64,000 bases of DNA from Gentiana macrophylla (lineage: Eukaryota > Streptophyta > Magnoliopsida > Gentianales > Gentianaceae): assembly GCA_026214975.1 (NCBI GenBank), contig JAOBSW010000714.1, forward strand, positions 1 through 64,000. Direction: 5' to 3'. The notes beneath the pieces are model-generated. The model saw only the letters and a program-made list of their open reading frames with translations, did not search any database and had not been told where the DNA came from. Numbering within the stretch: position 1 is the first letter of the stretch; each line of letters opens with the position of its first letter. Positions 3,291 to 53,894 of this stretch are shown in pieces. The position numbers and the translations under genes are program-made.

Positions 3291-3589
3291 TTGAGTGTTG
3301 CTCACCTTCACCAACTCCGCTCACAATAAACCAAGAGGAAACATTTTAAAATTAGAAATCCTCACATCCTCACAAGATTTTCTTTTTCGATTTAATTTTC
3401 TCCTCCTCATTATTCTTTTCAATTTCTTTTTCCCTTTTTTAATTTTCTTGTTCTCTTCCAATTCAACCCATGCCTTTTCCAAATCAAGATTTTGTACATC
3501 TTTTGTGCAAAATTTGTAGATCTAGAACAAAAGAATCATGAGAATTACAATAAGTATTTTTGGCATTTCTTATGTGCTTATGATCGATG

Positions 3590-3700
3590 CTTTGGATCAC
3601 TATATTGTTTCCTCAAAGTAGGACATTTATGATCGTAATGCCCATAATTATTACAAATAAAACAATATAAATCTCTAGTTTTAAAGGAACTAGAAGAATG
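3590..3700 (-). pseudogene. Gag zinc knuckle (CCHC) relic
   Basis: The minus-strand frame reads Tyr-CFICNNYGHYDHKC-Pro with the C-x2-C-x4-H-x4-C spacing complete (codons 3664 down to 3623). This motif binds RNA in the nucleocapsid part of gag. A stop follows soon after. Upstream, about 4010-3890, a Lys/Glu/Ser-rich stretch may be gag linker, but I cannot define the capsid domain. Confidence 0.7.
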
Positions 3701-4905
3701 ATATTTACAAGTTGTTCCCTTTTGGTCTTAAAATTTTGATCATAAGTATTAGGAGTTTTAGATCTCACTTTCTTGATATCAAAAGATTTTATAGAATTGT
3801 AATTAAGATTTCCCCAAGAAAGGAAAGATAATGTGACATTATTTTTTTATTTACAAAGAAAGGAAAAAAATATAGACAAAAGAAAATAAAAATCCTCACT
3901 TTCACTCTTTATCTGGGTGATTGATGATTCACTCTCACGGCTTTTCTCCCCTCTTATGGACTCACCACACAATTGCCTTTTACGCTCTTTCTCAATTAGA
4001 GTATTAAGCGATTAAAAAGTGCACAATAATATATTTGCAATGCTATGTGAATCTTTGTATCCTTAGTCCTCAAATCACAAGAGAGAGAAGGCTATGATGG
4101 ATTCAAAAGTGAGAAGAAAGACAAAATAATGGAGTAGATGTGGAAGAGACCAAAGATGTATGAGACTTGGGGCACCTTTTGAGTAGTGACCCTTTATATG
4201 ACTTTTTTTTTTTAATAATTTTTTGTTTGACTCAAAAAACTCTGAAGAACATGGATTAGATCGGACTATCTCCTTTTAATCGATTGCCTAAATGATTAGC
4301 ACTTCAATTGGAGTTCGGTAACAACTTCCTGATTTTGTCCAGAAATTCAGCCACTGCACTTATTGCACGTGCAGCCCAAACAAAAGCAATTTCAACTGGA
4401 AGCAAAAAGAAATTTGTAGAATAATGAGTTATGTAGATGATACCCAAAATTCAGATTTTTAGACTTTTATAGGTTGAAAAAACAATCGTTTCTTATCAAC
4501 TACCTCAATCTGTCAAAATTTTCCAGAATTGTAGCAGTGACTTATTTTCCGATTGTGATCAAACTATGACGAATATGGAAACACCCAAAAAGATGCAAGT
4601 TGTAGAACAGAAATTTCCTATCACACCACCAATTTTCAATGAATTTGGAATTTTATAACCCACTCAAACGAAATTCGAAAGAAGATCTCTGCTGCAGAAT
4701 TTCAGAGCAAGTATTCTGTGTTGCAATGCAGTTTCAGTATGATCTGATTCGAATTTTCAGATACAATAAAAAGAGAAAATGTAGATCTATTGGTTATTTA
4801 TTTGTGATAAAAATTCAGATTTTTGAGGTTTTATGAGTATTAAACGAATTGAAACAAAAGCAGGTGTCAAATCAGCAACACCAAAACAAATGGATTGAAC
4901 ACTTT

Positions 4906-4919: not shown

Positions 4920-6009
4920 TGATGTATACCTTAGACCCCCTAACAATGAAATTGTTAAGAACCCTAAGTAATACAATGAATATCCCGAAATAAAAGGAAA
5001 ATAGAATTAGATGAAGGAAAAGACTTGAGCAAAAGTAGTTTAACTCAAGGATGAGACTAGAAGAACCAATGGCTATGAAAAGCCAAGACCCTTCTAATGA
5101 TCCTTAAACCAAAGACTACAATGAAACACTTTAAGCTATGCTCACAAACTTAAAATGCACTTAACAAAAGTTGTAAAAACTCTAAGAAAACTCTCAATAT
5201 GATTATAATTCAAGGTGTCAAATACATATGGTGTGCCCCTCGCTTTACAGGCTAAGGATCTTTGGCATTTTATTTCCTAGAAAATAAAAATAAAATAAGA
5301 AAATGTAAAATAAAAATGAACCTAGTCACCTTTTATGTCTAGGTGAAAAAGAAATAAAAATAATTCCTAAAATAAAAGAAATCTTCAAATCAATCATTAG
5401 TAAATAATCCCCAATCAGTTGATTGATTATCTACCAAAATTAGGTGAAGATTTGATGAAATCAATCATCATAAGACTACTAATTTCGTTATATATGGCCT
5501 TGGGTAGGCTTTATTGGACACCAATATTAATAATAAGACTTCAAATAAATAGAAAATAGCCAAAAGTCCATCTTCGTTTCTCTTGAATTCTTGATCCATG
5601 CTCTTTGGCCCAAATGTGTTAAAATAATCAAAGTAAGAAATCATTCTCTTCATTTGTACATGTACTTCATCACATTGGGCTTCTCTTAGATGATAATAGT
5701 CAACATGGTGACAAGCGGATCGTTGAAAATGTGCTAGATCCACTTGAGAATATGCAAACTTGCGAATTTAGCTTGAATAAAGGACAACTTGTATCCGCTT
5801 AATGAATCTGACCCTTGATACTTATGAGTAACCTTAAAATTATCAAAATAAATGATAAATTAAAGTTCCATAAGTTTTCCACATTTAATGGAATGCGGAT
5901 CTCATGCAAATCACTTGATATAAGTCTTAGGCGGTTAACGATCATCAATGTGAAATCGTGGACCATAAGAGCATGTAGAAAATGATGATGGCTTGATGGT
6001 CCTCCATCA
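4920..6009 (-). repeat. 5' LTR of the gag-only gypsy element
   Basis: Partner of 598-1679. It begins TGATGTATACC right after the primer-binding site and ends CCTCCATCA before the target duplication CTTGG. Confidence 0.85.
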
Positions 6010-9000
6010 CTTGGATTATAAACTCACGGGTACTCACGATCATATTGTCACTAGTAGAGCTTGTATGCGGACTTACAGACACTGTTTCACATGTTAGTAG
6101 AGTGCGCTTTAATGGTTCTAGTATGTGATAACATATATTAGTCTTGTATGTTTAAATGATAAATTAATCGACCAATGTGTTATGCATTCCAGGACTTACT
6201 GCCATTTCAATCTTATATCCTTGGCCAACTTTGAATCTTGACCTGCCTTGTCTATTGTCTTTAACTTTGACTTTTGTCTCATGCAGGACAAAACTTGGGA
6301 TAATGATTGGATCGACTAATAAATCTAAAAAGGTCTTCATGTTACGAGCAATGATAGGCAAATTTTACATAATATCAATCTTTGTCAGTGGTACACGAGT
6401 TTGATGATCGATCTAGGATTGCAAATGAGCAAGTCGGCATTACAGACTTGGTCATCTGCATAATAAAGATTGTCTCATTTGAGTTGTATTGATTCCTCTT
6501 GTAAAAACATTGTAGATGTATGTCATGTTTGTCAACTTGCTAAACAAAAGAAATTCTTTCCCCTTGAGTCAATCGATGTACACAATATATTTGATCTAGT
6601 TCCAGCTTCAATATATGGGGACATTATAGACAACAAGCAGTTCATGGTCATTTTACTTTCTTATAGTAGTAGATGCTTTTCAAGATATACTTGGGTTTTC
6701 TGCTTTGAAACAAAAATGAAGTCGGACAACTAGTTCAATCTTTTGTTGAGTTTGCTTTAGTCTGATTTGGAAAACATGTTAAAATTGTTAGAAGCAGACA
6801 ATGGAGTGAATTTGATATGCTGATTATTACACACAAAAAGGGATCATACACCAAACATCTGTGTGGACACACCACAATAGAATGGTATAGTAGAAAGAAA
6901 ACATCAAGCATATCTTGAATGTAGCTAGAGCTTTGAAATTCAGTCTAACTTGCCTTTGTCTTCACTGGGTTAATTTGTCTTACATCTTTGTGTTTTGATT
7001 AATTTGACACCATCACGAGTCATTCAAAATAACACACCTCATTTCTTGCTCTATGGTAAATAGTTTGATTATCTGAGTTGAGAGTTTTGGTTCACTTGTA
7101 TATGTATGCACTCCTGCTCATAATAGAGCAAAGTTTGAACCTAAGAGAGCTAAACAATGTGTGTATCTTGGAGTTCTAAGTTTACAAAAGGCCACATTGT
7201 ACTAGACAAGCAGGACTAGGGACATCTTTGTATCTAGAGATGTGCAATTTTATGAAACCATTTTCATTTTACATTTGAAAGCTACAGTGCAAGTGGTAGC
7301 TCATGTTCCATTACCTATTATATATGAAAGAGATCAGAGACAATCATGATACATCCTCTCACAATAATGAGATGACACATGAGAATCTACTCATGATGCT
7401 TCAAACAACACTACACAACTTGAGTTCAACATGAAACAAGAAGATCTATCAGGCAGAGACAAATCCCAACATATCTTAAGGAATATGTGGTCCACTAAGA
7501 CAAAGTCACCACATTCAATAAATAATGTGGTCACATATGAAAACCTTTCAAGCAATTATTAGAAGTTTGTTCTCTTGACGGACCATATACAAGAGCCTAG
7601 AACCTACAATCAAGCGATTAAACATGATTATTGGAAAGAGGCCATGCGAGAAAGAGTTAGATGCATTACAAGCTACCAAAACACAGGAGATTGTCTCTTT
7701 ACCTCGAGGAAAGTCCCTTATAGGTTGCAAATGGGTATATAAAGTAAAGTACCATCTTTGATAAATCCATAGAAAGATATAAAGCAGATTAGTGGCAAAG
7801 GATACACTGAGACCTATGGGATATATTACCAGAAACATTCTCACCTGTAGCCAAGGTGAAAACAATCATAACTCTGTTAGCAACACGGCATCAAGAAATG
7901 GCATATCCATCAAATGGATGTCAACAATGCCTTTCTCCGTGGGGATTTGTATAAGGAGGTATACATGGAGCGCCTCTTGGTGTCAAGGCAGAGAAACTTG
8001 GCCAAGTGTGCAAATTGTCCAAGTCTTTATATGGCCTTAAGCAGACCCGCCAGACAGTGGAACTCAAAAGCGGCCCGAGACCACAATAGAAATGGGATTT
8101 TCCACAGTCACCTCATGATCACGGTTTATTCACTTAAAAGGCACATGTAGTAACTTTATAGCTCTACTTGTGTATATGGATGACATCATTGCAACCTTGA
8201 CTCAACAATGAGTCAATAGATGAGGTCAAACAAGTTTTACACAAAAGGTTTGATTAAGGATATTGGTGACCTCGGATACTTTTTGGGAATTGGCGTTGCA
8301 AGATCCATTAAAGGTATCTACATCAACGAGAAAACATACATTCTAAATCTCCTATCGAATATGGATTCTTAGAGGCAAAACCGATTCGACACTATGAATT
8401 CCAAGCGAAGCTATCGGTGGGGATTGAACTACTTTAGATAATACCATAAAGCAGGACCTTTGGTAAGAAAACTCATTTACCTATCCTTCACTAGACGACA
8501 TAGCATACTCGGTTCAACAACTTAGTCGGTTTTGTCTCATCTACCGTAAACCACATGCAAGAATTTGCACATAAAGTTTTGAGATACCTCAAGAGCAATC
8601 ACAGTCGAGGCATCCTTTTTGAAGCGAGATAATGACCTTCTACTCAAAAAGGTATAAGCAGATTACGATTGGGGCGTTTGTGAGGACACAAGGAAATATA
8701 TATCGGGTACATCATGTTCTTAGGATCATTTTATTTTCTGAAACAAAAAAGCAAAGTACAATAGCGAGAAGCTCATCCGAGGCGAGAATATAGAGCCATG
8801 GAAAATGCTATATATGAGCTGCAGTGGCTTGTTTACCTCATGCAAGACTTACATATACCAGTTCAATTACATGTTACGCTTTTTGTGATAATGCGGTGCT
8901 ATGCACATAACCAAGAACCCAATTTTTCATGAAAGGACTAAGCATATTGAGGCTGGATTGTCACATCACCAGAAGTGAAGTCCATGGAGAGTTCTCAAAC

Positions 9001-9404
9001 TTATGCTGTAAGAACAACTAATCAACTAGGCGATATATTGACCAAGCCACTTTGGACACTCCAATATTGACTATCTCGCTCTACAAACCAGTCATCTATT
9101 CCATCTTCAAACCTTGATCTTCACACCAACTAAGAATTGATGCTACACTCTCGGCTGATCTGCGATGCTACACTCGATGTGAGACAATCATCGGCAGAAC
9201 ACTCTCGTGACCAGACCATCATCAGCAAACACTCCTCAGCAGTTTGCTGATAATCCTCAGCAGTAGCAACTGTATCAGCAGCATCAACAACCTATCAGCA
9301 CCTTTATCTTCAGAACACCTGAGCCGACTTTCCTGAGGAATACATATAAGCTACATGTCTAAGATGTTCAAGTGCAAGCTTCAAGTACTTTCAGCTTGAG
9401 GGGG
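6010..9404 (+). pseudogene. Ty1/copia element C1, decayed pol
   Basis: Broken polyprotein in normal copia order. Protease start at about 6010-6070 (Trp-Ile-Ile, then a decayed active site, then His-Ile-Val-Thr). GAG-pre-integrase zinc region at 6430-6560 with CHVCQLAKQKKFFP. Integrase core about 6570-7180, including a Pro-Gln-Gln-Asn-Gly-like block and Val-Glu-Arg-Lys near 6870-6910. Reverse transcriptase about 7660-8340, with Gly-Cys-Lys-Trp-Val-Tyr-Lys near 7725, MDVNNAFLRGDLYKEVYME near 7914, and Tyr-Met-Asp-Asp at about 8173. RNase H about 8700-9060, with a Cys-Asp-Asn block. Many stops and frameshifts make it non-functional. A run CTTGAGGGGG (9395-9404) is the likely polypurine tract. 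Confidence 0.8.
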
Positions 9405-9763
9405 TGTATTAGAGTTAACATACATAGAAGCTACGGTTGTGTTTGTTTCGGGTTGAGTTTTTTTGGGTTTTTAGATAAAGTGATTGAAGTAATGATTATA
9501 AAGTTAAGATGTTTTTTTGAAATTTGTGTAGATTATGAAATGATTGGTGAAATAAAGTAGAATAATGAATAAAATAATGGTAAAAAAAGGTAATAAAGTT
9601 GATAAAGTGAAATGATGAGAGATGATTTAATATTTTTTATTTGTAGTTGAAGATTTGATTGGTGGGAGAATTGTAAGAAATGATTGGTGATGTGATGTAA
9701 AAAAAACCCCAAAAAAACTCTTGGCAAAACAAACACAACCTACATGTCTAAGATGTTCAAGTG
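9405..9763 (+). repeat. Truncated 3' LTR start of C1, split by a MITE
   Basis: TGTATTAGAG starts right after the purine tract, as an LTR should. Only about 30 bases precede the MITE and about 23 follow it before homology to the 42902 segment begins, so the LTR is cut short. The stretch around AAGCTACATGTCTAAGATG occurs twice, at 9350-9373 and again here with the MITE inside it. Confidence 0.45.
9435..9740. mobile_element. MITE with about 40-bp terminal inverted repeats
   Basis: The left end GGTTGTGTTTGTTTCGGG and the inverted right end GGTTGTGTTTGTTTTGCC match, and the pairing continues through a poly-T/GGGTTTT stretch. Flanking TAC occurs on both sides (9432-9434 and 9741-9743). The 306-bp size and lack of coding fit a MITE. 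The 3-bp duplication is closest to the PIF/Harbinger class, although TAC is not the usual TWA. The neighbouring copy at 9350 shows the same sequence without the insert. Confidence 0.75.
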
Positions 9764-10420
9764 AACAAGGAGATTATAGTTGGAAGAATATCAATCTTCA
9801 AATAGACTCATTTGATGTATCTTTAAAAAAAAGTGGTTGTAAGAACTAAGTGATTGTTTTAGAGATTTTCCTTTTTTTTTTTGGGCGAGAACCACAATGA
9901 AGCACAAGACACGAGTGAAAAATGAAAGCGAAACACCCTGAAAAAAATATATAGAGATGGAAGGAAAAAAAGCGAGAAAAGATTACAAAATGAATAAATA
10001 GGACACATTACTTTTTAGTTGCAAAAGAACAAACAATTTCAAACCGACAAGAATACCCTTTTAAAAAGGAAGCGCGCATGTCTTGATTTATTCCGCTTCA
10101 GCCAGGTTGTTTGTTGTTGTTTTTTTTTTCAAACATCCGTAACTTTTGATTTATAACTCCGATCATGAAATTTTTCACCAAAATTCATATTTTTGCTCTT
10201 TAATTTGAGCCAAAATCGATACCCTTCCGGCGTAAATTTTGAAAGGCGAAAAATATTTTCATTAACGAGCGTTTTTCTTATAAGCGAGCGTAACTTTTGA
10301 TTTAGAACACGATCATCAAAATTGTTTCATCAAAGTTCATTTTTATCTTCGTTTTGAGACCTCATTTGATACCTTTTCGGCGTAGTGTTTGAAAGCCGAA
10401 TTTAATCGCGGCATTTTGCA
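9764..10420. other. Non-coding part of the duplicated segment
   Basis: Homologous to 42902-43590. Its first 190 bases also match 20727-20905 and 32188-32370, the 5' part of the gag-relic repeat. I see no gene. Two paragraph-like repeats (CGTAACTTTTGATTTA near 10140 and 10290) occur about 150 bp apart. Confidence 0.6.
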
Positions 10421-12067: not shown

Positions 12068-12180
12068 AAGAAAAAGTAAAAAGCAAAGTTCACTAGTTCA
12101 TCATCGCAAAGAAAATCGACTACTGTAAAATTATCGGAAAGAAAAGAAGAAGAAGAAGCTGCCACTCAATCCAATCCATA

Positions 12181-13765
12181 ATGTCTTCGACTTGCTTTCA
12201 AGCACCGATGAAGAGACTCCCCAATTTCAAATCGATCGTTAAAACCTTCAATAATTCTCTATCAATGTCATCACCCGTTTTGCCCCCCGGGGCCGGGAGG
12301 AAGAATAATAAGCCATTATTAATGCAGATTTCTGGTAATATTGCTGCTGCTGCTGCTGCTAAAAAGCCCTTGAAGAATCAGGTTATCGACGTTGTTGGCG
12401 TGAAGAAGAAAGAGAATTGTAAGGGTTTCTTAGTAAATCCTCGTCCCCAATTGAAGTACAAATCTTGGGATGAAATTCTTAGTAAGACCAAGTATGATGA
12501 TATGCCTACAAAGAAACAACAGATGAGGAGTCCTGTTTTAAACCCATATTTGATGCCTGCAGACGAATTATCAGATTTTCCTGGCCCCAAAACCCCGTTT
12601 GGAATTCCTGTCTGGAAGGGAAACCACTGAATTTATCTGATGCAAAAAGTGATCTCAAGATGATGCTGGGTGATGATTCAGCCATGAATTCCTCTTCTTT
12701 GCCAAAGATTGTGCTGAAAATTAAACCTTTGATTCCTTCATCAAGCCGCTGTCATGATGATTCCGGGAGGGATTTCATAGAGAAGAAAAAAGCAATCTTC
12801 TTGACCTGCAAAAGTTCGAGAAACCAAGACGACGACGACGATGCTGTTTTGAATTCGAAACCGAAACCGAAACCGGAACTGGCTAATGCTGATTTGAATT
12901 CGAACCCGAAACCGGAACCGGCTAATGCTGATTTGAATTCTTGCCCGAAACGAAACCGACTAAAGCAAAGAAAGCAGTACTCATGCCGAGAGAATCACCC
13001 TGTAGCCACCAAGCCCCTGTTGTGAGTAGATGTCTGAAACGTAAACCTGTCAATTCAATCCGTAGTGATTCCGGGATGTATTTCAAAGCCAAGAAAGCAA
13101 TCTTGCCATCCAAAAGGGCAAGAAACAGAAGCGAGACGACGACACTGCCTTGAAAAGAAGGAAAGTTACTTTGAGTTCGGAGGACAAGCCTGAAGAATCA
13201 TTAGAAACTGCAAGCAGCCCAACCGTTGTCGGTTGTAAGCCTTTCAGAAGAACCACCTGCAGCCGATCATTCGGTGAATCAGTACTCGGATTATACATCT
13301 ATAAATGTTCCTGCAGATGAGCAAAAATCCGTCAAAACCGTTGCCCTATCGAGTAATATTAATTCAATCCCGGATAGCGACTGCAATATCTCTCCCATTA
13401 TTATTGATGGCGGCGACACTTACATTAAGGCCGAACACGAGGTTAAGTTGTTGAGTTGCTACGAAGACACTATCCTTAAATCTGTAACCGATCCGATACA
13501 AAAAGAGCTAGAAAGAGAACGGATGAGATGTAAAGTAAAAGAATTGAAGACAAGATGAGGCGTACAAAAGCGAAAATTACAAGAAAAGAATAGCTGCCCG
13601 GATTGCATTGGATAAGGTTGTCAAGACCATAGAGTTCCACGATAACAACATCGACTATATGGAGGAACTGCACCGTTTATACAACATCCGTCTATTTGAT
13701 CTTAATTATGAAACCTCGGTTTTTCGAAGCCATTAGAATGGCTTGGCCTATCCATAAGGTAGATT
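12181..13765 (+). pseudogene. G1: frameshifted copy of the lysine/proline-rich unknown gene
   Basis: Aligns along its full length with G2 (49346-50938) and uses the same ATG. The first 149 codons are open. A single missing C near 12585 shifts the frame, and further small indels follow (about 12950, 13130, 13235, 13545 and 13560). No copy-specific domain has been gained. The indels are one or two bases, and several lie in CAG/CTG or homopolymer contexts, so some could be sequence errors. As given, the product would be a truncated protein of 149 residues. Confidence 0.7.
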
Positions 13766-21709: not shown

Positions 21710-23646
21710 TGACGGACGTTTTCTAGACTATTACAATCCTTACCGGCAGTGTACCGGGTCAAATTGTAGTGCTAGTATGGTGAGTCAGGTGTCGAATCCT
21801 CAGGGAACGTGGTAATTCGTTTAAGTGTGGTTAAACACCAAACAGCTATTATTAACTCGATCTAAATCGCAGGTTTATCATACGAGTCACTACTATACTA
21901 ATAAACAGAAAATAAATGCATAAATTAAAACTAAACTAATATAATATATATAAATACATAAATATATATAGTAATACATAAATTGTAATATATATATATA
22001 TATATACCAATATATTAAATACTAATAATTATTATAGAACTAGCCAAGATATATGTAATTGAATTATTCAATCTTTTTAGTTTAATGGATGTGCTCGTTC
22101 TTCCTTTTTATTAGGTCCAATTGAATATGTGAAACGGTGCACTCCTCAGCTCAACAGTTCCCTCTCACACGCAGCGTCTTAAATCGTCATATGTCTCATC
22201 AATCTGTCAATATCATCCAAAAGATTGGGTACTCCGTTTTGTCATGCGGTCAATGTTAAAGATCTTGATCGAACGGGTGAATTAACGTAATTAGATCTCG
22301 AAAGTGAGATAATTTCAAGAAGTGTTTCTCTTTTCAAAAGATAAAACAATTCTACCCGGGTAGGAAATAGGATTCCGTTGTCACGTTTTCACTCGGCCAT
22401 TTTTACCCTCCGGTTTTTCTACCTTTTTCTCATATCCTAACTTCACCGTTTAGTTCGTCATTAGGTTATGGTGCGATTCATATTGGTTAATTACGTCAAT
22501 ACGAATATTTTCAATACATTTCAAGTAGAAAAAGATTCATCAAATTCAATTTTAATCAATTTTAGTTATAGTCATCATCCATTTTACCAAAAGATCGAAA
22601 TATTTCAATTACATATCTTGGCTAGTTATAGATTTAGCTTACTAACATTATAAAGAAAAACATAAAAACAACAAACATAAAACTTTAGAATATTACCAGG
22701 TTACAACTGCTGATTTAGAGGCCGTATTCTCCGGAAATTACAATAACTTCTTCAACATCGAACTCCCGATAACCGTCCAAGCATTACAACGATACTACAG
22801 CTTCTACATTATTTATGGCATAATGCCTACTAATATATACATTACTACTACTAATTTAAGAGATTAGAAGATATATATATAGGCTAGTATATATATATTG
22901 GTACCTCCCCCAACAGCCTGCATGAATGCTGTATTTATAGGAGACATTTTCAAGGCCGGATCGATCCGGAGTTAGGTCGGATCGATCCGAGAATAAAAAA
23001 TATTATCTCCCAGGCTTATCCTCTGCATAACCACATATTAATCATCATTATGTTTCCTTATCAGATAAGCCGGATCGATCCGGGGTTAATCCGGATTGAT
23101 CCGGGTAGCATTTTTCCAAATCTTGATCGAAACTTGATAAAATCATAACTTGAGCTCTGGATCTCCAAATGACATAATTCAAGAAGCGTTGGAAAGCTCT
23201 TTAAAAGATCTATAACTTTCATGAAGGACTCTTCTTCAGAAAATGCCTTTTTGATGGGTCATTTGTTCGTCGAAAATATAATTCGATAATAATACTACGA
23301 ATTGATGATCCACTTGAATTCTTAATCTCGTGGCACTTCCTTACTTCCTTCAAAAGACATGTTTTAACTTCAAAAGTTTCGTCACTCGGGGTTTTGGTTT
23401 ATCTAAAAATCTGCAATAAAACACCAAAAATACCCACGTAAATCGACACGACGACACTCCGGTTACTAAACCGGTACAAAATTTATAACTTTTATTACTT
23501 TTACTAGATTTTTATATTATTTTAGACTTATTCATAACTATTGATATTACATAAGATTATCATTATAATTTCTTATATTTTATATAGAAAGAGTTGATAA
23601 AATATATAAAATATCGTAATTTTTATCATATAAATGTTATACATCA
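21710..23646 (-). repeat. 3' LTR of E1
   Basis: 1937 bp, TGACGG... to ...CATCA. On the minus strand it reads: start, a block shared with E0, E2 and E3 (CTACAACTTTCATGAAG type, near 23210-23250), two pairs of CGGATCGATCCG dyads, a TATA box (CTATAAATAC, 22931-22940), and an end block (near 21748-21800) containing CCGGTACACTGCCGG-like sequence that recurs in E0, E2 and E3. Confidence 0.75.
22957..23103 (-). promoter_or_regulatory. Two pairs of CGGATCGATCCG dyads upstream of the E1 LTR TATA box
   Basis: Dyads start at 22957, 22978, 23071 and 23092. Members of each pair are exactly 21 bp apart. The last one has one change (CGGATTGATCCG). Each is a 5-bp arm CGGAT, the bases CG, then ATCCG. The nearest dyad is 17 bp upstream of the TATA box at 22931-22940 on the minus strand. 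The position indicates promoter-proximal protein binding sites; the binding protein is unknown. Confidence 0.75.
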
Positions 23647-25218: not shown

Positions 25219-26069
25219 AAACTATAGATGAGCAACCGGGAGTATCAACCGGAAGCAGTCCCATTTGAGAATCACGAGAAGGATAAATCTCGTCCGTAGC
25301 AACCTCAGGGACTCCATTCAAATGAACACACAGTCTGGATATAAGCCAAGAAAAAGGCATCGGCCTTCCTCTACTACGTCTTTCCACCGCGAAATTAATT
25401 GCCGTCTTGTATATTAAAATCCCCTAGTCCACATATGCTCCAACAGTTATTGCATAAAATAGAAGCATCTCGTCGTCAGTAACCCCAGAAAAGTCACTAG
25501 TGGGATAGATTCGGGAATTAATAAAGTGTTTCCATGCCCTCAGATGAGGGGGTAAAGCCAAAGTGGATGAATCATAGTTATGGTCAAAAAGTGGAAACAC
25601 ATCTTTGGAATGCTTCGCAAAGTCACGATTGACAAAATTATAGGCATTTCCGAGCTCCCATTGAAACTTCGAAATGTGGGTTTGGAACAAAGCTACGGCG
25701 GGATTTCAAAATTTTGATTAACAACGATCAAGAAAAGGTTATAATGATACCCCAACAAGTAATAAGATGAGTTGAGGCTACCGTCGTGACGTCAGATAGA
25801 GATGCGTAAAAATCTCGAACAACAAAAATGTTGATTCTACCTCGGGGATGGCTAACCAACTTTCTCCAACCACAGCCTCGGATTAAATTTCGACCCCATT
25901 GATCTATTTTTTCCGTGTTTAATCCCTTCTCCATCAGTATAGGAGAATTAACAAAATTCAAACGTCTTGGGAGATTATTATGGAAAGAAGAGGATTGAGA
26001 AGCGGGAACCACAACATCTGGAGTCAGTGGTTCGTAACTATTAACGGAAGGAGTCAAGTGATTAGACAT
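25219..26069 (-). pseudogene. E1 ORF b: putative plant transposon (Transposase_32) protein
   Basis: Starts at ATG 26069 with Met-Ser-Asn-His-Leu-Thr-Pro-Ser after a short leader. The N-terminal part reads LNFVNSPILMEKGLNTEK, then a Trp-Gly-Arg block and VVRDFYASLSD, the expected start of the domain. After an apparent frameshift at 25690-25790 it continues with WKHFINSRIYPTSDFSGVTD, then after another near 25427 with GILIYKTAINF, RGRPMPFSWLISRLC and GVPEVATDEI, and ends Ser-Ser-Ile-Val-stop at about 25219. The domain order matches the family. The family's function is unknown; the name does not show that it is a transposase. A TATA box and four dyads lie upstream. Confidence 0.7.
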
Positions 26070-26146
26070 AATTAAAAAAAACTTATGCAGAGAAGTGAAG
26101 AAGAGATGAGTAAGAAATGAGCAATTTCTAAGGCTGGCTGATATTT

Positions 26147-26158
26147 CCTTATATAGAA
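26147..26158 (-). promoter_or_regulatory. TATA box of E1 ORF b
   Basis: Minus strand TTCTATATAAGG, about 80 bp upstream of the ATG at 26069 and about 58 bp downstream of the nearest dyad. The leader between is pyrimidine-rich, as is common at plant start sites. Confidence 0.6.
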
Positions 26159-26215
26159 ACATACACATCGTGCAAAAGTAGAAAAGATCTTTGTTTTGGC
26201 ATTTATTGGGTTTCC

Positions 26216-26323
26216 CGGATCGATCCGGGAAAGGGCCGGATCGATCCGGCCTATCAGATTAAAATCCATGTCAGGTCGGCATACTAACACCGGATCGATC
26301 CGGGATCAGGTCGGATCGATCCG
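26216..26323 (-). promoter_or_regulatory. Four CGGATCGATCCG dyads upstream of E1 ORF b
   Basis: Exact dyads start at 26216, 26237, 26291 and 26312, again in two pairs 21 bp apart. All four core sequences are perfect and equal to those in the E1 LTR. The surrounding DNA does not resemble the LTR, so this is not simply a piece of LTR; only the dyads and their spacing are shared. Confidence 0.8.
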
Positions 26324-26574: not shown

Positions 26575-28055
26575 TCTCCAATCTCGGCAAAGCTCGAACT
26601 AGGCATGGATTGAGAACTAGCAGGATCATGAGTCGACTCAAACAATGGTTCTTGAAAAGGCGTCGACATCCTAACCGAACTATCGAATCCCATAGAACTC
26701 ATCCTGTTGTGATATCAAGCAAAAGTTCTTCCCCGACTTGTCGTGGTGTGGGAAAATGCTCCAAATCCTCCCCGAACTAGATCACATTTGCCGCCATGTG
26801 GTACTGTCGAAAAATCACCTACACCACTAGTTTGATTTCCAAAAGAATGTGACATTGGTTGGAAGTTTGATTGAGGTGGCATTGGTGGAATCATTTCGGG
26901 CAAGGTATATGGCTCAGATTGGCAATGCGGAATATCCATTCCGGCGTGGGTGGTTCGAAAGTATATTCATCGATATAAACCTCGCATGCCTTGCCTTAAA
27001 TCTTGAGACCATTGCCTATTCCTTTCGCATAGATAGCCATATTGGCATGGGCACGAGTAACATCAAAGGATAAGGATTGAAACATGTCATAAGTGATGGT
27101 ATTTGGAAGCTGAGATTGTGTTTGACTTGATGATGGAGGAACAGTGGTGGGTTGAGAAGCAGTGGAATAGGTGAGGTCGGGCGGCGGTTTGGGTTCATAA
27201 AATCTATTTTTCCGCTTGGTTGAGTGGCAAACTAGGGCCTATCAATGCTTCATCAGCCAAAATCAGATTATCATTAGGTAGCTCAGGAACACCTATTTGT
27301 CGACATAATGAAGAAATAAAACAAGGAAAAGGCATATGACTGCCTGGTTTAGCAGTCGTGACAAATTCCTTGGCCCGTTTATACATGACTTTGCCTACAT
27401 CCATAGCTATATCATTGACCATAGCCCATGCAATACAAAGATCCTCTTTACCAAAAGATGTCAAATGACGAGTAGGGTAAAGAGTCGAACTAATAAAACG
27501 CTTAATGGCTTTCATATCCCTTATACACTTTCCATATGAAAATCTATTTTCATGCCATCTAGCTGTAGGATCTAACTCGTTCTGGGCTATTAAGACTATA
27601 TGGTCAAAATCTGCAGGTTCATCAAGATTCCACACTGTATAATAATCTTCATCTTCTGGTATATCGGGAATACCATATATAACATTTATAATATGAGGAG
27701 TAAACGGCACTGTCTTGGTTCTTAAGGTTGCAGAGGCTAACTCACCATCTTCTGTTGCATTATGTGTTGCTAACAGAGAATAAAACTCAGAAACCAAGGT
27801 TGTGTTAACTTCACCTTCTCTTAAAGCGGCTAACTCCATCCACTGTCTACTTTCAAAAATCGCTTTCACTTCCTTTCCCAAATCCTTAAAATCTAAACCC
27901 CTTTCTATCGCAACTAAACATTTTCCAAACTTATTCCTTAATGCACTTTTAGCTGCTTTAGACGCGGTTCTTTGAAAACTAACTGCCAACTCTTCAGGTG
28001 TTAATGGCCTTGTTTCTATGACCGGAATTTGGATTGGGATATTTGGCTTACGTTT
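26575..28055 (-). pseudogene. E1 ORF a: putative plant transposon (Transposase_32) protein, N-terminus cut off
   Basis: The longest clean stretch is 261 codons from 27989 to 27204. In-frame sequence continues upstream (Pro-Val-Ile-Glu-Thr-Arg-Pro-Leu-Thr) to the junction at 28055, so the true start is lost. Domain features: VNTTLVSEFYSLL at residues 61-73, VPFTPHIINVIYGIPD at 94-109, FISSTLYPTRHLTSFG at 165-180, FPCFISSLCRQIGVPE at 221-236. After a frameshift at about 27205 the tail continues (TYDMFQSLSFDVTRAHANMA) and seems to end near 26575 with Glu-Ile-Gly-Asp-Asp-Glu-Glu. It is related to ORF b but clearly diverged. It acts, if at all, as part of the retrotransposon; its role is unknown. 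Confidence 0.7.
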
Positions 28056-43701: not shown

Positions 43702-45394
43702 TGATGAGAGACAAATTGTCGCTTATTATTATGACATTTTACCCCATTTCTGATACCACTTTGAGTATTATTGTACCAATTCAAGTCATTAATTATTTAT
43801 TTTCATCCATATGTGTAGATAGTAATTATTATATAAAATATCATATTTTATAGGTTTTGTACCGGTTTAGTAACCGGAGCGTCGTGTCGGGTTTACGCTT
43901 GGTATTTTGGTGATTTACTGCAGGATTATAGGTTGACCAAGACCCCGAGTTACGACACGTGTTGAGCCTAAAACACGTCTTTTGAGGGCTAGAAGAGTGT
44001 GCCGGAAGCTATCAAGTTCAAACGGATCAATTGTCTTTTGCGTTTCTACCATAGCCTATCTTCAAAGGACATTTGACCCAACTTAAAGGCATTTTCTGGG
44101 GAATACTTCTTCATAAGAGTTGTAGATCAAGAAATGATCTTTCCAACGCACTTTGAATCACATCAATCGGAGGTCTACAGCTCAAGTTATGATCATTTTA
44201 CCGAGACCCGGTGCAGACCGAATCTTTACCGGCGCACGCGCCAAATCGTCGCAAAAAGCTGTCAGATGCTGTCGGAAGTTAGTTATACCGGCGCGCACGC
44301 CGAAACGCCACAGAAGTAGATTTCAGCATAAATACATCATCCAGGATCACATTTTCCCCAATCTTTCAACCCCATCTTCTTCTTCCCCTTCTTCTTTTCT
44401 TTCTTGCGGACTTTATTAGTTAAAGGCTCTTAGAGACGAAAATTAGTTACAATATTTAGCTATTTTCATCTCAAAATTAATTCTTTGAATGTTAACTCAA
44501 CCGGTTGGGGTAGTTAATTGGATGAAGCTCAACACCAAGATCAGTCGGCTCCATGAATGATCTACGAAGATGATTGAAGATTTTCCTTTGAAATTCAACG
44601 GTTGTAATCGGTAATATTCTAGTTTTATTTTTGTTTTGATAATCTTATTGCTATGAATACTAATTTTAACATGTTAGTAATTGTAGTAATGAGTAGCTAA
44701 ATTTGTAACTAGCCAAGATGATGTTGTTGTGATAATTATTAATCTCTATTATGTTGATTGGGAATGTTAATTCATGTATTTCATAGCTTTTTGTGTTGTT
44801 GCTATCTTTTTCTATTTTCACTGTATTGCTTGTTGGTGTTGGATTGATCATCTAACACTAGCACACACACACTTAGTTGAGACCGAACGGAGATATTAGG
44901 TGTGGGAGAAGGAATAGGAGAACCGGAAGGTAAAATTGGCCGTCTGACTGAACCCTCTTTCTTATCCGGGGAAAGAATATTTGTACTCGAGAGCTTAATC
45001 ATGTTGAATCATTAGGTCTAGGGTTCTTAGACCAAGGAGGAGACATAGAGTAGTATCGTACACTCGTATGAGGGGAAACTACTAGCTTAGGAGTGCACCG
45101 GTAACACACACTTGAACACTAAAGGAAGGTTGGTAGGTAGTTCATTCCCATGATGCTAGTAGAGTTATACCTGATCAATGCATTGTCTTGGCTAGGCTTT
45201 TTATCATTTTATTACCCATTGTAGTAGTAGATTTTAGAAAAATTTACTTTCGTTAATTCGACTTAGATCAAGATAATAATAGCTTTTGGTGTTCAACCTC
45301 ACAATCCTCGTGGGATACGACTTTGACCACTTACTAGACTACAATTGACCCGGTACACTGCCGGTAAGATTGGACACCTAGAAAGTCTCGATCA
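43702..45394 (+). mobile_element. Solo LTR E2
   Basis: 1693 bp, TGATGAG... to ...CGATCA, in the opposite orientation to E0, E1 and E3. The flanks are CTCAT (43697) and CACAT (45395). The first copy of the segment reads GGCTCATATAAGG at 10514 without the insert. It shares with E1 the block TACCGGTTTAGTAACCGGA (43861, inverted in E1 near 23465) and an end block with GGTACACTGCCGGTAAG near 45353-45369. No interior sequence remains. Confidence 0.75.
44210..44301 (+). promoter_or_regulatory. GGCGC-type dyads upstream of the E2 TATA box
   Basis: GGCGCACGCGCC at 44231 and GGCGCGCACGCC at 44290. A shortened partner GGTGCAGACC lies at 44210, 21 bp before the first. The TATA-like CATAAATAC is at about 44328-44336. 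The pairing is less clear than in E0 and E1: the two good dyads are 59 bp apart. Confidence 0.5.
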
Positions 45395-47523: not shown

Positions 47524-47556
47524 CGGATCGATGCTGAAAAGTCCCGGATCGATCCG
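47524..47556 (-). promoter_or_regulatory. Pair of CGGATCGATCCG dyads in E3
   Basis: The full dyad is at 47545-47556. A partner at 47524 has the left arm and centre intact (CGGATCGAT) and a changed right arm. The starts are 21 bp apart. The TATA box (minus CTATATATACCCCC, about 47393-47407) is 117 bp away because a TA run separates them. Confidence 0.65.
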
Positions 47557-49123: not shown

Positions 49124-49330
49124 TCAGGGCACAGATATCATAAGAATCATACGGATCTTTTCGAACAGCGTTCTTGAAAAGCTATGTTTACAAATAGGGT
49201 ATAAGGCTTTCTCTTCTTCACGATCCCAAATCAAGAAAAAGTAAAAAGCAAAGTTCACTAGTTCATCATCGCAAAGAAAATCGACTACTGTAAAATTATC
49301 GGAAAGAAAAGAAGAAGAAGAAGCTGCCAC
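49124..49330 (-). other. Possible divergent first exon of H or antisense frame
   Basis: An ATG-started frame of 68 codons beginning Met-Ala-Ala-Ser-Ser-Ser-Ser-Phe-Leu, with NFTVVDFLCDDELVNFAF. Its ATG is only 15 bp from the G2 ATG on the other strand. The first 32 residues are kept in the copy at 12165, and the 11996 insert changes the rest. It might be the first exon of H or merely a frame in a G leader. I cannot decide. Confidence 0.25.
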
Positions 49331-49345
49331 TCAATCCAATCCATA

Positions 49346-50938
49346 ATGTCTTCGACTTGCTTTCAAGCACCGATGAAGAGACTCCCCAATTTCAAATCGA
49401 TCGTTAAAACCTTCAATAATTCTCTATCAATGTCATCACCCGTTTTGCCCCCCGGGGCCGGGAGGAAGAATAATAAGCCATTATTAATGCAGATTTCTGG
49501 TAATATTGCTGCTGCTGCTGCTGCTAAAAAGCCCTTGAAGAATCAGGTTATCGACGTTGTTGGCGAGAAGAAGAAAGAGAATTGTAAGGGTTTCTTAGTA
49601 AATCCTCGTCCCCAATTCAAGTACAAATCTTGGGATGAAATTCTTAGTAAGACCAAGTATGAGGATATGCCTACGAAGAAACAACAGATGAGGAGTCCTG
49701 TTTTAAACCCATATTTGATGCCTGCAGACGAATTATCAGATTTTTCTGGCCCCCAAAACCCCGTTTGGAATTCCTGTCTGGAAGGGAAACCACTGAATTT
49801 ATCTGATGCAAAAAGTGATCTCAAGATGATGCTGGGTGATGATTCAGCCATGAATTCCTCTGCTTTGCCAAAGATTGTGCTGAAAATTAAACCTTTGATT
49901 TCTTCATCAAGCCGTTGTCATGATGATTCCGGGAGGGATTTCATAGAGAAGAAAAAAGCAATCTTCTTGACCTGCAAAAGTTCGAGAAACCAAGACGACG
50001 ACGACGATGCTGTTTTGAATTCTAGCACCAAACCGAAACCGGCTAATGCTGATTTGAATTCGAAACCGAAACCGAAACCGGAACCGGCTAATGCTGATTT
50101 GAATTCTTGCCCGAAACCGAAACCGAAACCGACTAAAGCAAAGAAAGCAGTACTCATGCCGAGAGAATCACCCTGTAGCCACCAAGCCCCTGTTGTGAGA
50201 AGATGTCTGAAACGTAAACCTCTCAATTCAATCCGTGATTCCGGGATGTATTTCAAAGCCAAGAAAGCAATCTTGCCATCCAAAAGTGCAAGAAACGAAG
50301 CAGACGACGACAGTGCCTTGAAAAGAAGGAAAGTTACTTTGAGTTCGGAGGACAAGCCTGGAGAATCATTAGAAACTGCAAGCAGCCAAACCGTTGTCGG
50401 TTGTCGCCTTTCAGAAGAACCACCTGCAGCCGATCATTCGGTGAATCAGTACTCGGATTATACATCTATAAATGTTCCTGCAGATGAGCAAAAATCCGTC
50501 AAAACCGTTGCGCTATCGAGTAATATTAATTCAATCCCGGATGACGACTGCAATATCTCTCCCATTATTATCGATGACGACGACACTTACATTAAGGCCG
50601 AACACGAGGTTAAGTTGTTGAGTTGCTACGAAGACACTATCCTTAAATCTGTAACCGATCCGATACAAAAAGAGCTAGAAAGAGAACGGATGAGATGTAA
50701 AGTAAAAAGAATTGAAGACAAGATGAGAGCGTACAAAAACGAAAATTACAAGAAAAGAATAGCGGCCCGGATTGCATTGGATAAGGTTGTCAAGACCATA
50801 GAGTTCAACGATAACAACATCGACTATATGGAGGAACTGCACCGTTTATACAACATCCGTCTATTTGATCTTAATTATGAACCCTCGGTTTTTCCGAAGC
50901 CATTAGAATGGCTTGGCCTATCCCTTAAGGTAGATTAA
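49346..50938 (+). CDS. G2: unknown lysine/proline-rich, probably nuclear protein, 530 aa
   Basis: An uninterrupted single-exon frame of 530 residues. No known catalytic domain. Visible features: a basic N-terminus; an Ala run at 55-60; an Asp run at about 218-222; a repeated KPKP...PANADLNS region at about 229-265; a Lys-Arg-Arg-Lys-Val nuclear-signal-like motif near 325; an acidic Ile-Ile-Ile-Asp4 patch near 408-414; and a charged, probably helical or coiled-coil stretch at about 432-485, followed by a tail containing NYEPSVFPKPLEWLGL. The start is the first ATG of the frame, shared with G1. The leader upstream is AG-rich, and AATAAA-type signals follow near 51090. Two broken copies (G1, G3) flank it, so this is the only member likely to be functional. 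Role unknown; a chromatin or nucleolar role would be speculation. Confidence 0.7.
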   Translation: MSSTCFQAPMKRLPNFKSIVKTFNNSLSMSSPVLPPGAGRKNNKPLLMQISGNIAAAAAAKKPLKNQVIDVVGEKKKENCKGFLVNPRPQFKYKSWDEILSKTKYEDMPTKKQQMRSPVLNPYLMPADELSDFSGPQNPVWNSCLEGKPLNLSDAKSDLKMMLGDDSAMNSSALPKIVLKIKPLISSSSRCHDDSGRDFIEKKKAIFLTCKSSRNQDDDDDAVLNSSTKPKPANADLNSKPKPKPEPANADLNSCPKPKPKPTKAKKAVLMPRESPCSHQAPVVRRCLKRKPLNSIRDSGMYFKAKKAILPSKSARNEADDDSALKRRKVTLSSEDKPGESLETASSQTVVGCRLSEEPPAADHSVNQYSDYTSINVPADEQKSVKTVALSSNINSIPDDDCNISPIIIDDDDTYIKAEHEVKLLSCYEDTILKSVTDPIQKELERERMRCKVKRIEDKMRAYKNENYKKRIAARIALDKVVKTIEFNDNNIDYMEELHRLYNIRLFDLNYEPSVFPKPLEWLGLSLKVD

Positions 50939-53087: not shown

Positions 53088-53894
53088 ACCGAAACCGGCT
53101 AATGCTGATTTTAATTCGAAACCGAAACCGGAACCGGCTAATGCTGATTTGAATTCTTGCCTGAAACCGAAACCTCTCAATCAATCCGTAGTGATTCCGG
53201 GATGTATTTCAAAGCCAAGAAAGCAATCTTGCCATCCAAAAGGGCAAGAAACGAAGCAGACGACGACAGTGCCTTGAAAAGAAGGAAAGTTACTTTGAGT
53301 TCGGAGGACAAGCCTGAAGAATCATTAGAAACTGCAAGCAGCCCAACCGTTGTCGGTTGTCGCCTTTCAGAAGAACCACCTGCAGCCGATCATTCGGTGA
53401 ATCAGTACTCGGATTATACATCTATAAATGTTCCTGCAGATGAGCAAAAATCCGTCAAAACCGTTGCGCTATCGAGTAATATTAATTCAATCCCGGATGA
53501 CGACTGCAATATCTCTCCCATTATTATTGATGACGACGACACTTACATTAAGGCCGAACACGAGGTTAAGTTGTTGAGTTGCTACGAAGACACTATCCTT
53601 AAATGTGTAACCGATCCGATACAAAAAGAGCTAGAAAGAGAACGGATGAGATGTAAAGTAAAAAGAATTGAAGACAAGATGAGAGCGTACAAAAACGAAA
53701 ATTACAAGAAAAGAATAGCTGCCCGGATTGCATTGGATAAGGTTGTCAAGACCATAGAGTTCAACGATAACAACATCGACTATATGGAGGAACTGCACCG
53801 TTTATACAACATCCGTCTATTTGATCTTAATTATGAACCCTCGGTTTTTCCGAAGCCATTAGAATGGCTTGGCCTATCCCTTAAGGTAGATTAA
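53088..53894 (+). pseudogene. G3: N-terminally truncated copy of the unknown gene
   Basis: Begins in the KPKP-PANADLNS region, so about 230 N-terminal codons are missing and there is no in-frame ATG start. Compared with G2 it also lacks about 35 codons between the Cys-Pro-Lys repeat and Pro-Leu-Asn-Ser, and one base is missing near 53182. From there to the TAA at 53892 it is open and almost identical to the G2 C-terminal half. It is probably not expressed as a normal protein. Confidence 0.7.

Follow-up and report, generated by a model that had tools for sequence, protein, structure and literature searches.

Retrotransposons of one family in Gentiana macrophylla carry a single type of short dyad at each of their promoters – that of the long terminal repeat (LTR) and those of two accessory genes, ORF a and ORF b – and related lineages in the same genome carry dyads of other types, which likewise match within an element. 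Layout, abundance and conservation in the copies read are, like this lineage-specific matching, direct observations. Our favoured reading, which we consider rather probable, is that one lineage-specific trans-acting factor switches the LTR and the accessory genes; with less certainty, it would be encoded by the element, with the product of ORF a or ORF b as its likeliest source.

The E1 element and its promoters

The window (the whole 64,000-nucleotide stretch of contig JAOBSW010000714.1 that was analysed) holds E1, a decayed member of an Athila-like family of Ty3/gypsy retrotransposons (Table 1). The name 'Athila-like' is a putative assignment based on the accessory ORF. In the L008 copy (minus strand) RT/RNase H (9178-9900) is followed by integrase (8160-8663), which is the Ty3/gypsy order; the integrase-before-RT order of Sireviruses (Ty1/copia) is not found in this copy, and the family does not have the build of VANDALs, which are Mutator-like DNA transposons, LTRs and pol being present. 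Its Transposase_32 accessory ORFs lie in sense orientation between pol and the 3' LTR.

Eight exact copies of the dyad CGGATCGATCCG occur in the window, and none in 100 dinucleotide shuffles. Four of them are where the sequence-only reading had placed them, upstream of ORF b, and its description of these as two pairs, 21 bp apart within each and upstream of a TATA box and the ATG (26069-26067), is borne out; the gap from 26237 to 26291 is 54 bp. The E1 LTR has the same two-pair layout, with one base changed in the last dyad and with its TATA box ~17 bp from the nearest dyad, and the full LTR is longer than the part in the window (L008 and L009 share 1,946 aligned bases, 95.4%). A further sequence, CGACCTGAC, stands between or beside the ORF b promoter dyad pairs in three of four E1 copies (the window, L005 and L008) and in lineages C (L019) and C' (L054), and is perhaps a second, separate site; as a site constant across all types it was rejected, being missing from the ORF b promoters of L007 and of three F copies. 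Elsewhere in the window are LTR sequences of two other elements, E2 and E3, and, on the plus strand at 49262-50938, a 558-codon open frame in a repeated region, with related frames at 12097-13025 and 53148-53894.

Table 1. Positions in the window of E1 features and of dyads in two other elements
Feature	Position	Strand	Basis
Part of E1 3' LTR, 88.5% identical to the LTR of the L008 copy	22589..23609	-	alignment
LTR TATA box, CTATAAATA	22932..22940	-	sequence
LTR proximal dyad pair, exact CGGATCGATCCG at 22957 and 22978	22957..22989	.	dyad search
LTR distal dyad pair, 23071 exact, 23092 CGGATTGATCCG	23071..23103	.	dyad search
ORF b remnant, downstream piece, Transposase_32 15.5 bits, below cut-off	25424..25705	-	PF20167 score
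ORF b remnant, first piece with ATG at 26069, Transposase_32 18.7 bits, below cut-off	25731..26069	-	PF20167 score
ORF b promoter TATA box, TATATA	26150..26155	-	sequence
ORF b promoter proximal dyad pair, exact at 26216 and 26237	26216..26248	.	dyad search
CGACCTGAC between ORF b promoter dyad pairs	26270..26278	-	sequence comparison
ORF b promoter distal dyad pair, exact at 26291 and 26312	26291..26323	.	dyad search
ORF a, Transposase_32 90.8 bits, 5' end truncated at 28055	27204..28055	-	domain score
LTR of other lineage E2, type-C-like dyads (44209 CGGTGCAGACCG; 44289 CGGCGCGCACGCCG)	43848..44330	+	sequence
Dyad pair, one degenerate and one exact, in LTR of third element E3	47524..47556	.	

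ORF a and ORF b are paralogues, both with Transposase_32 domains and 24-25% identical to each other. The domain that the sequence-only reading had assigned to the ORF at 26069 is real, scoring 77.6 bits in the open, 283-codon L005 copy (an open ORF a scores 93.3 bits), but in the window that ORF is interrupted and survives as two stop-free pieces, each below the 45-bit cut-off for PF20167. The window also lacks the ORF a dyad promoter, because ORF a is cut near its start. Fuller copies in the same genome have three dyad promoters per element, at the LTR, ORF b and ORF a. Copies L005-L015 were fetched from the genome list of exact E1 dyad matches; L005, L006+L007 and L008 keep the 3' part, with the ORF a dyad set ~2.2-2.3 kb further upstream than the ORF b set (at 6764/6785 in L008, 8163/8184 in L005 and 9527/9547 in L006). 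Simple sequence patterns picked up no TATA box in the ORF a promoters read. The ORF a leader has an intron-like stretch at L008 6478-6334 (AAG/GTAACA ... CGTAG/A ATG, with slashes at the presumptive splice points) and at the equivalent places in L005 and L057, and one E1 copy has a Transposase_28 ORF nearby (L005 3-818, minus strand; 50.9 bits).

Pfam-type domain scoring, a PDB profile search and a structure model revealed no DNA-binding domain in either ORF. A profile of seven Transposase_32 proteins gave weak matches only against the PDB (best E 0.045), with no solved relative, and the AlphaFold model of the window's ORF a, made from a single sequence without an alignment, has a mean pLDDT of 34.2. 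Among 2,110 word-sharing candidates in a protein database, none matched ORF a at E 0.001 or better.

Dyad sets of the related lineages

The exact E1 dyad occurs 15,938 times in the 1.79-Gb genome, against 26 times for the same letters reversed. The corresponding counts are 11,744 and 0 for the dyad of lineage B and 3,030 and 8 for that of lineage F, and exact sites of the three types number about 30,700. The first 50 exact E1 dyads along contig C1, taken in genomic order, were assigned to LTRs (36), ORF b promoters (nine) and ORF a promoters (four), with one unclassified; the LTR group includes short elements that have two long LTRs and no ORF of more than 137 codons between them (L014, L015).

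Transposase_32 loci were also picked by protein score alone, as the best 30 of 150 scored (17,504 candidates). Grouped by ORF, 17 of these 30 form lineage B, and at 16 of the 17 a dyad with at most two mismatches from CTCGGTCGACCGAG stands shortly before the ATG (the remaining B locus has no B dyad), against 0 of the 13 other loci. Thirteen B loci have a pair exactly 22 bp apart, and the others have spacings of 24 bp or 41 bp or a single dyad. Downstream of two B ORFs (L049, L050) the same dyad recurs as a 22-bp pair before a CTATATAAA box. This stretch is taken as the B LTR since L049 continues into what we presume to be a primer-binding site and the similarity of the two copies stops there, the B and C LTRs alike being assigned from position, TATA box and neighbours and not from paired LTRs; one more dyad pair lies beyond the site in L049.

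The Transposase_32 domain does not imply the circuit, since in 12 of the best 30 of 150 scored loci the neighbourhood of the ORF is free of E1, B and C dyads. No such dyads lie near another large group of Transposase_32 ORFs (MVRKKE or MPRRFVNPRAH; L035, L037, L039, L041, L042, L044-L046 and others), and L026 has two other CGG-CCG palindromes, more than 1 kb upstream. The LTR in L053 (reverse complement 4460-4540) has TGACCTGCGCCA-like repeats, perhaps yet another dyad type; the ORF promoter is lost there, so matching is unreadable.

Lineage C, a class defined after the sequences were viewed, has an ORF b (L019) that is 47% identical to that of E1, with CGGTYTGCRCCG-like dyads 20-21 bp apart in its promoter and likewise in the ORF a promoter (L051). 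About 8 kb upstream of these ORFs, L052 is taken as the C 5' LTR because it has C-type dyads, a TATA box and then an ORF whose start agrees by eye with that of an ORF in the E1 copy L009; a CGGTCTGCGCCG dyad is common to this LTR (in reverse) and the C ORF b promoter. An LTR directly downstream of L019 was not found in L048. In C' (L054) C-like dyads stand at both ORF promoters, the types matching, and the 5' LTR was not found in L055. The C' ORF b promoter aligns with that of E1 with the dyads in the same columns, other cores and shared flanks, and the C promoter aligns less well. The reverse complement of L054 also has a piece of ORF b duplicated ~2.2 kb apart (3540-3839 and 5738-6037, 93.8% identity) and, at 6990-7210, GGCGTTC repeats ahead of a CTATAAATA box, apparently the promoter of an unrelated LTR that has repeats of its own.

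Lineage F allowed a prediction, recorded before the search, that an autonomous F relative should carry the F dyad at the LTR, ORF b and ORF a. One LTR in L007 has CGGACCGGTCCG together with CGGACCGATCCG. Three pairs of sites among the 50 F matches listed are 2.26-2.29 kb apart, and the first F element has the dyad at all the predicted places – the ORF b promoter (L056), the ORF a promoter (L057) and the 5' LTR (L058, similar to LTRs in L007 and L014) – with the exact E1 dyad absent from all three loci. A 3' LTR of this first element was not found in L059. Two further F elements, which count for less as they were picked by match spacing, agree: L063 and L066 have the dyad at ORF a, and L065 (by homology) and L064 (by distance only) have it in the place that corresponds to ORF b. 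The E1 and F dyads are one symmetrical transition apart, one base per half, and the switch between them is not clean, since F sets (in L057, L063, L066 and the L007 LTR) include hybrids in which one half of the dyad is of the E1 type.

The sequence-only reading had proposed that the LTR and the promoter of one accessory gene share a site set. The sharing holds, and the single gene becomes two accessory ORFs: in all eight elements with both kinds of promoter readable the internal dyads match the element's own LTR, and no mismatch was encountered. Four of the eight are E1 elements (the window, L005, L006+L007, L008), two are B (L024+L049, L020+L050), one is C (L019+L051+L052) and one F (L056-L058). 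In a ninth, C', the two ORF promoters match each other. Counted by promoter, 11 of 11 in E1 have E1 dyads (at most one mismatch) and none has B or C dyads, and own-type dyads are present at 3/3 promoters in C, 2/2 in C', 3/3 in B and 3/3 in F. Exact dyads number 34 E1, 0 F and 0 B at nine E1 loci, 19 B, 0 E1 and 0 F at 19 B loci, and 7 F, 0 E1 and 0 B at seven F loci, with none of the three types at four C and C' loci, in a count made without L007, L014 and L015 (L007 holds an E1 element and the F-type LTR of another element).

A common factor and the alternatives

One trans-acting factor per lineage is the best explanation for whole sets of sites that differ together, in pairs about two helical turns apart and adjacent to promoters; and because the dyad sets change between lineages within one host, a factor encoded by the element is more likely than one of the host. 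The products of ORF a and ORF b are natural candidates, with putative DNA-binding activity. Each dyad would be bound by a dimer of the lineage-specific factor, with two dimers sharing one face of the helix close to the start of transcription, and the LTR, ORF a and ORF b would be switched together. From these sequences we infer a self-regulating circuit, as the sequence-only reading had suggested, in which either of the two ORF products may be the regulator.

A less likely account, though one to be taken seriously, is that host transcription factors bind the dyads and that the element has gathered host sites, the CGG...CCG frame denoting a host family and the middle letters picking the member. 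All dyad types have CGG-CCG ends, as do 12 of 13 motifs of Sireviruses, and this points to a shared reader; the Sirevirus motifs were matched mainly to stress-related plant sites (PMC2829016, sections available). On this account, however, each lineage would need to have swapped its host factor at two or three promoters together, and E1 and C' would need to have done so at aligned sites.

It is improbable that the internal dyads were copied from the LTR by recombination or template switching, so that matching would reflect copying and no shared reader. Copying would account for the partial likeness of the 33-bp pairs with their spacers, which in the window are ACCTAACTC (LTR) and ACCTGATCC (ORF b promoter) and in the F element GCCTATTCC (ORF a) and GCATATTCC (ORF b), and for the weak flank similarity of the C LTR and C ORF b promoter (z 2.4, dyads masked). 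The likeness of LTR and ORF b promoter is in the 9-bp spacer within a pair, and the flanks are otherwise unlike, in agreement with the claim that the DNA around the ORF b dyads does not resemble the LTR: with dyads masked, LTR and ORF b promoter of three E1 copies compare at z -0.3, 0.0 and 0.8 against shuffles, and all within-element comparisons of promoters lie between z -0.5 and 2.4 (n=11). Between lineages, by contrast, masked E1 ORF b promoters score z 4.1 to 5.1 in three comparisons (C' twice, and C), and masked E1 ORF a promoters z 12.7 against C' and 2.4 against C; the E1 and C LTRs score z -0.4. The dyads thus agree within an element despite unlike flanks, and in ORF b and in C' ORF a they differ between lineages amid like flanks.

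Nor would copying alone explain why dyads rich in CpG have been kept in LTR and ORF b copies that have diverged, CpGs being expected to decay first. In figures that are inflated for copies L005-L015, as these were chosen by exact dyads, dyad columns are 96.8% identical against 60.8% for the rest in four E1 ORF b promoters, 96.0% against 72.8% in ten LTRs and 94.4% against 77.5% in three ORF a promoters, and CpGs are kept at 132/138 inside the dyads against 32/91 outside in the ORF b promoters and at 888/972 against 34/194 in the LTRs, the ORF a promoters going against this trend (28/32 inside, 40/42 outside). A derivation of the E1 dyads by decay of F dyads was rejected because these fast-decaying CpGs are kept in the LTR and ORF b promoters.

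It is very improbable that the dyads are RNA or chromatin signals (dimer or packaging palindromes, methylation or small-RNA landmarks) rather than transcription factor sites: the palindromes are rich in CpG and CHG, the internal dyads lie inside the genomic RNA and maize Sirevirus LTR palindromes are reportedly linked to small RNAs, but at each promoter read the dyads are clustered ahead of a TATA box (LTR, E1 ORF b) or ahead of the ORF leader, the pairs are mostly 20-22 bp apart (two B loci, at 24 and 41 bp, are exceptions), and many C-type dyads are imperfect palindromes, from which poor pairing is expected.

A lineage-specific factor thus remains our preferred reading. Less certainly, it would be encoded by the element, most likely as the ORF a or ORF b product, and may act in a feedback loop of the foamy virus Tas kind, or as an anti-silencing protein like VANC; short, coding-poor elements with dyads only in the LTR may use it in trans. 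A bolder version, plausible but somewhat short of an even chance, makes a Transposase_32 accessory protein the lineage-specific regulator. It would bind the matched dyads and through them activate or un-silence the LTR, the gene that encodes it and that gene's paralogue; protein and sites would change together from lineage to lineage, and coding-poor elements would persist because they carry the dyad currently in use.

The matched dyads bear on the role of accessory genes in large plant retrotransposons and give a testable claim, that a single factor reads all the dyads of an element and that lineages sharing this genome differ in the specificity of their factor. The dyad types are ready-made binding substrates, and the roughly 30,700 exact sites allow binding or methylation to be compared genome-wide. 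If the bolder version is true, plant Ty3/gypsy elements would have Tas-like feedback control, and Transposase_32, a domain named 'putative plant transposon protein', would gain a function.

Comparison with known systems

The closest design is that of Sireviruses, whose element-specific palindromes, with CGG-CCG ends in the proportion given above, are repeated many times in the LTR, ahead of its TATA box, and recur in front of ENV; the four elements without ENV are, in the available sections of that account, also without internal palindromes (PMC2829016). The E1 family likewise has CGG-CCG palindromes before the LTR TATA box and upstream of a 3' gene. Sireviruses belong to Ty1/copia, whereas the E1 family has the Ty3/gypsy order and Transposase_32 accessory genes, and it differs further in that each of two accessory genes has its own set, that the pairs are mostly spaced at 20-22 bp, and that dyads of related promoters differ together. 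New here are the occurrence in a second superfamily (Ty3/gypsy), the presence of two accessory promoters, the pairing of dyads and the way in which whole sets differ in concert from lineage to lineage. The same arrangement was not found in the literature searched, of which coverage was incomplete, and its absence from print is not claimed.

Among Athila elements, a sunflower accessory ORF carries, in part, a Transposase_32 domain (PMC11728184, as far as available). Athila6A, an element of the Athila type, shares with the E1 family an internal promoter ahead of a 3' gene, there ENV, and differs in that the sections available describe no motif shared by LTR and internal promoter (PMC4977677).

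Related VANDALs resemble the related lineages described here in having different motifs, each read in VANDALs by the element's own VANC anti-silencing protein, and differ in that their targets are often tandem repeats and that they have no LTR (PMC5735166, in part). Retand elements, like the E1 family, have extra genes between pol and the 3' LTR, for which a DNA-binding regulatory role has been proposed (PMC11963269, in the portion available). The Retand ORFs are antisense and of the Transposase_28 type, whereas those of the E1 family are sense and of the Transposase_32 type.

In foamy viruses the internal promoter drives accessory genes. Tas acts on both the LTR and this internal promoter, and its binding is reported in the available parts of two accounts (PMC4929722, PMC8670036). 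The E1 family, too, has the same sites at the LTR and at internal promoters, with Tas as the one factor there and a putative factor, deduced from the sites alone, here; foamy viruses are animal retroviruses, and the likeness is one of arrangement, with no homology claimed.
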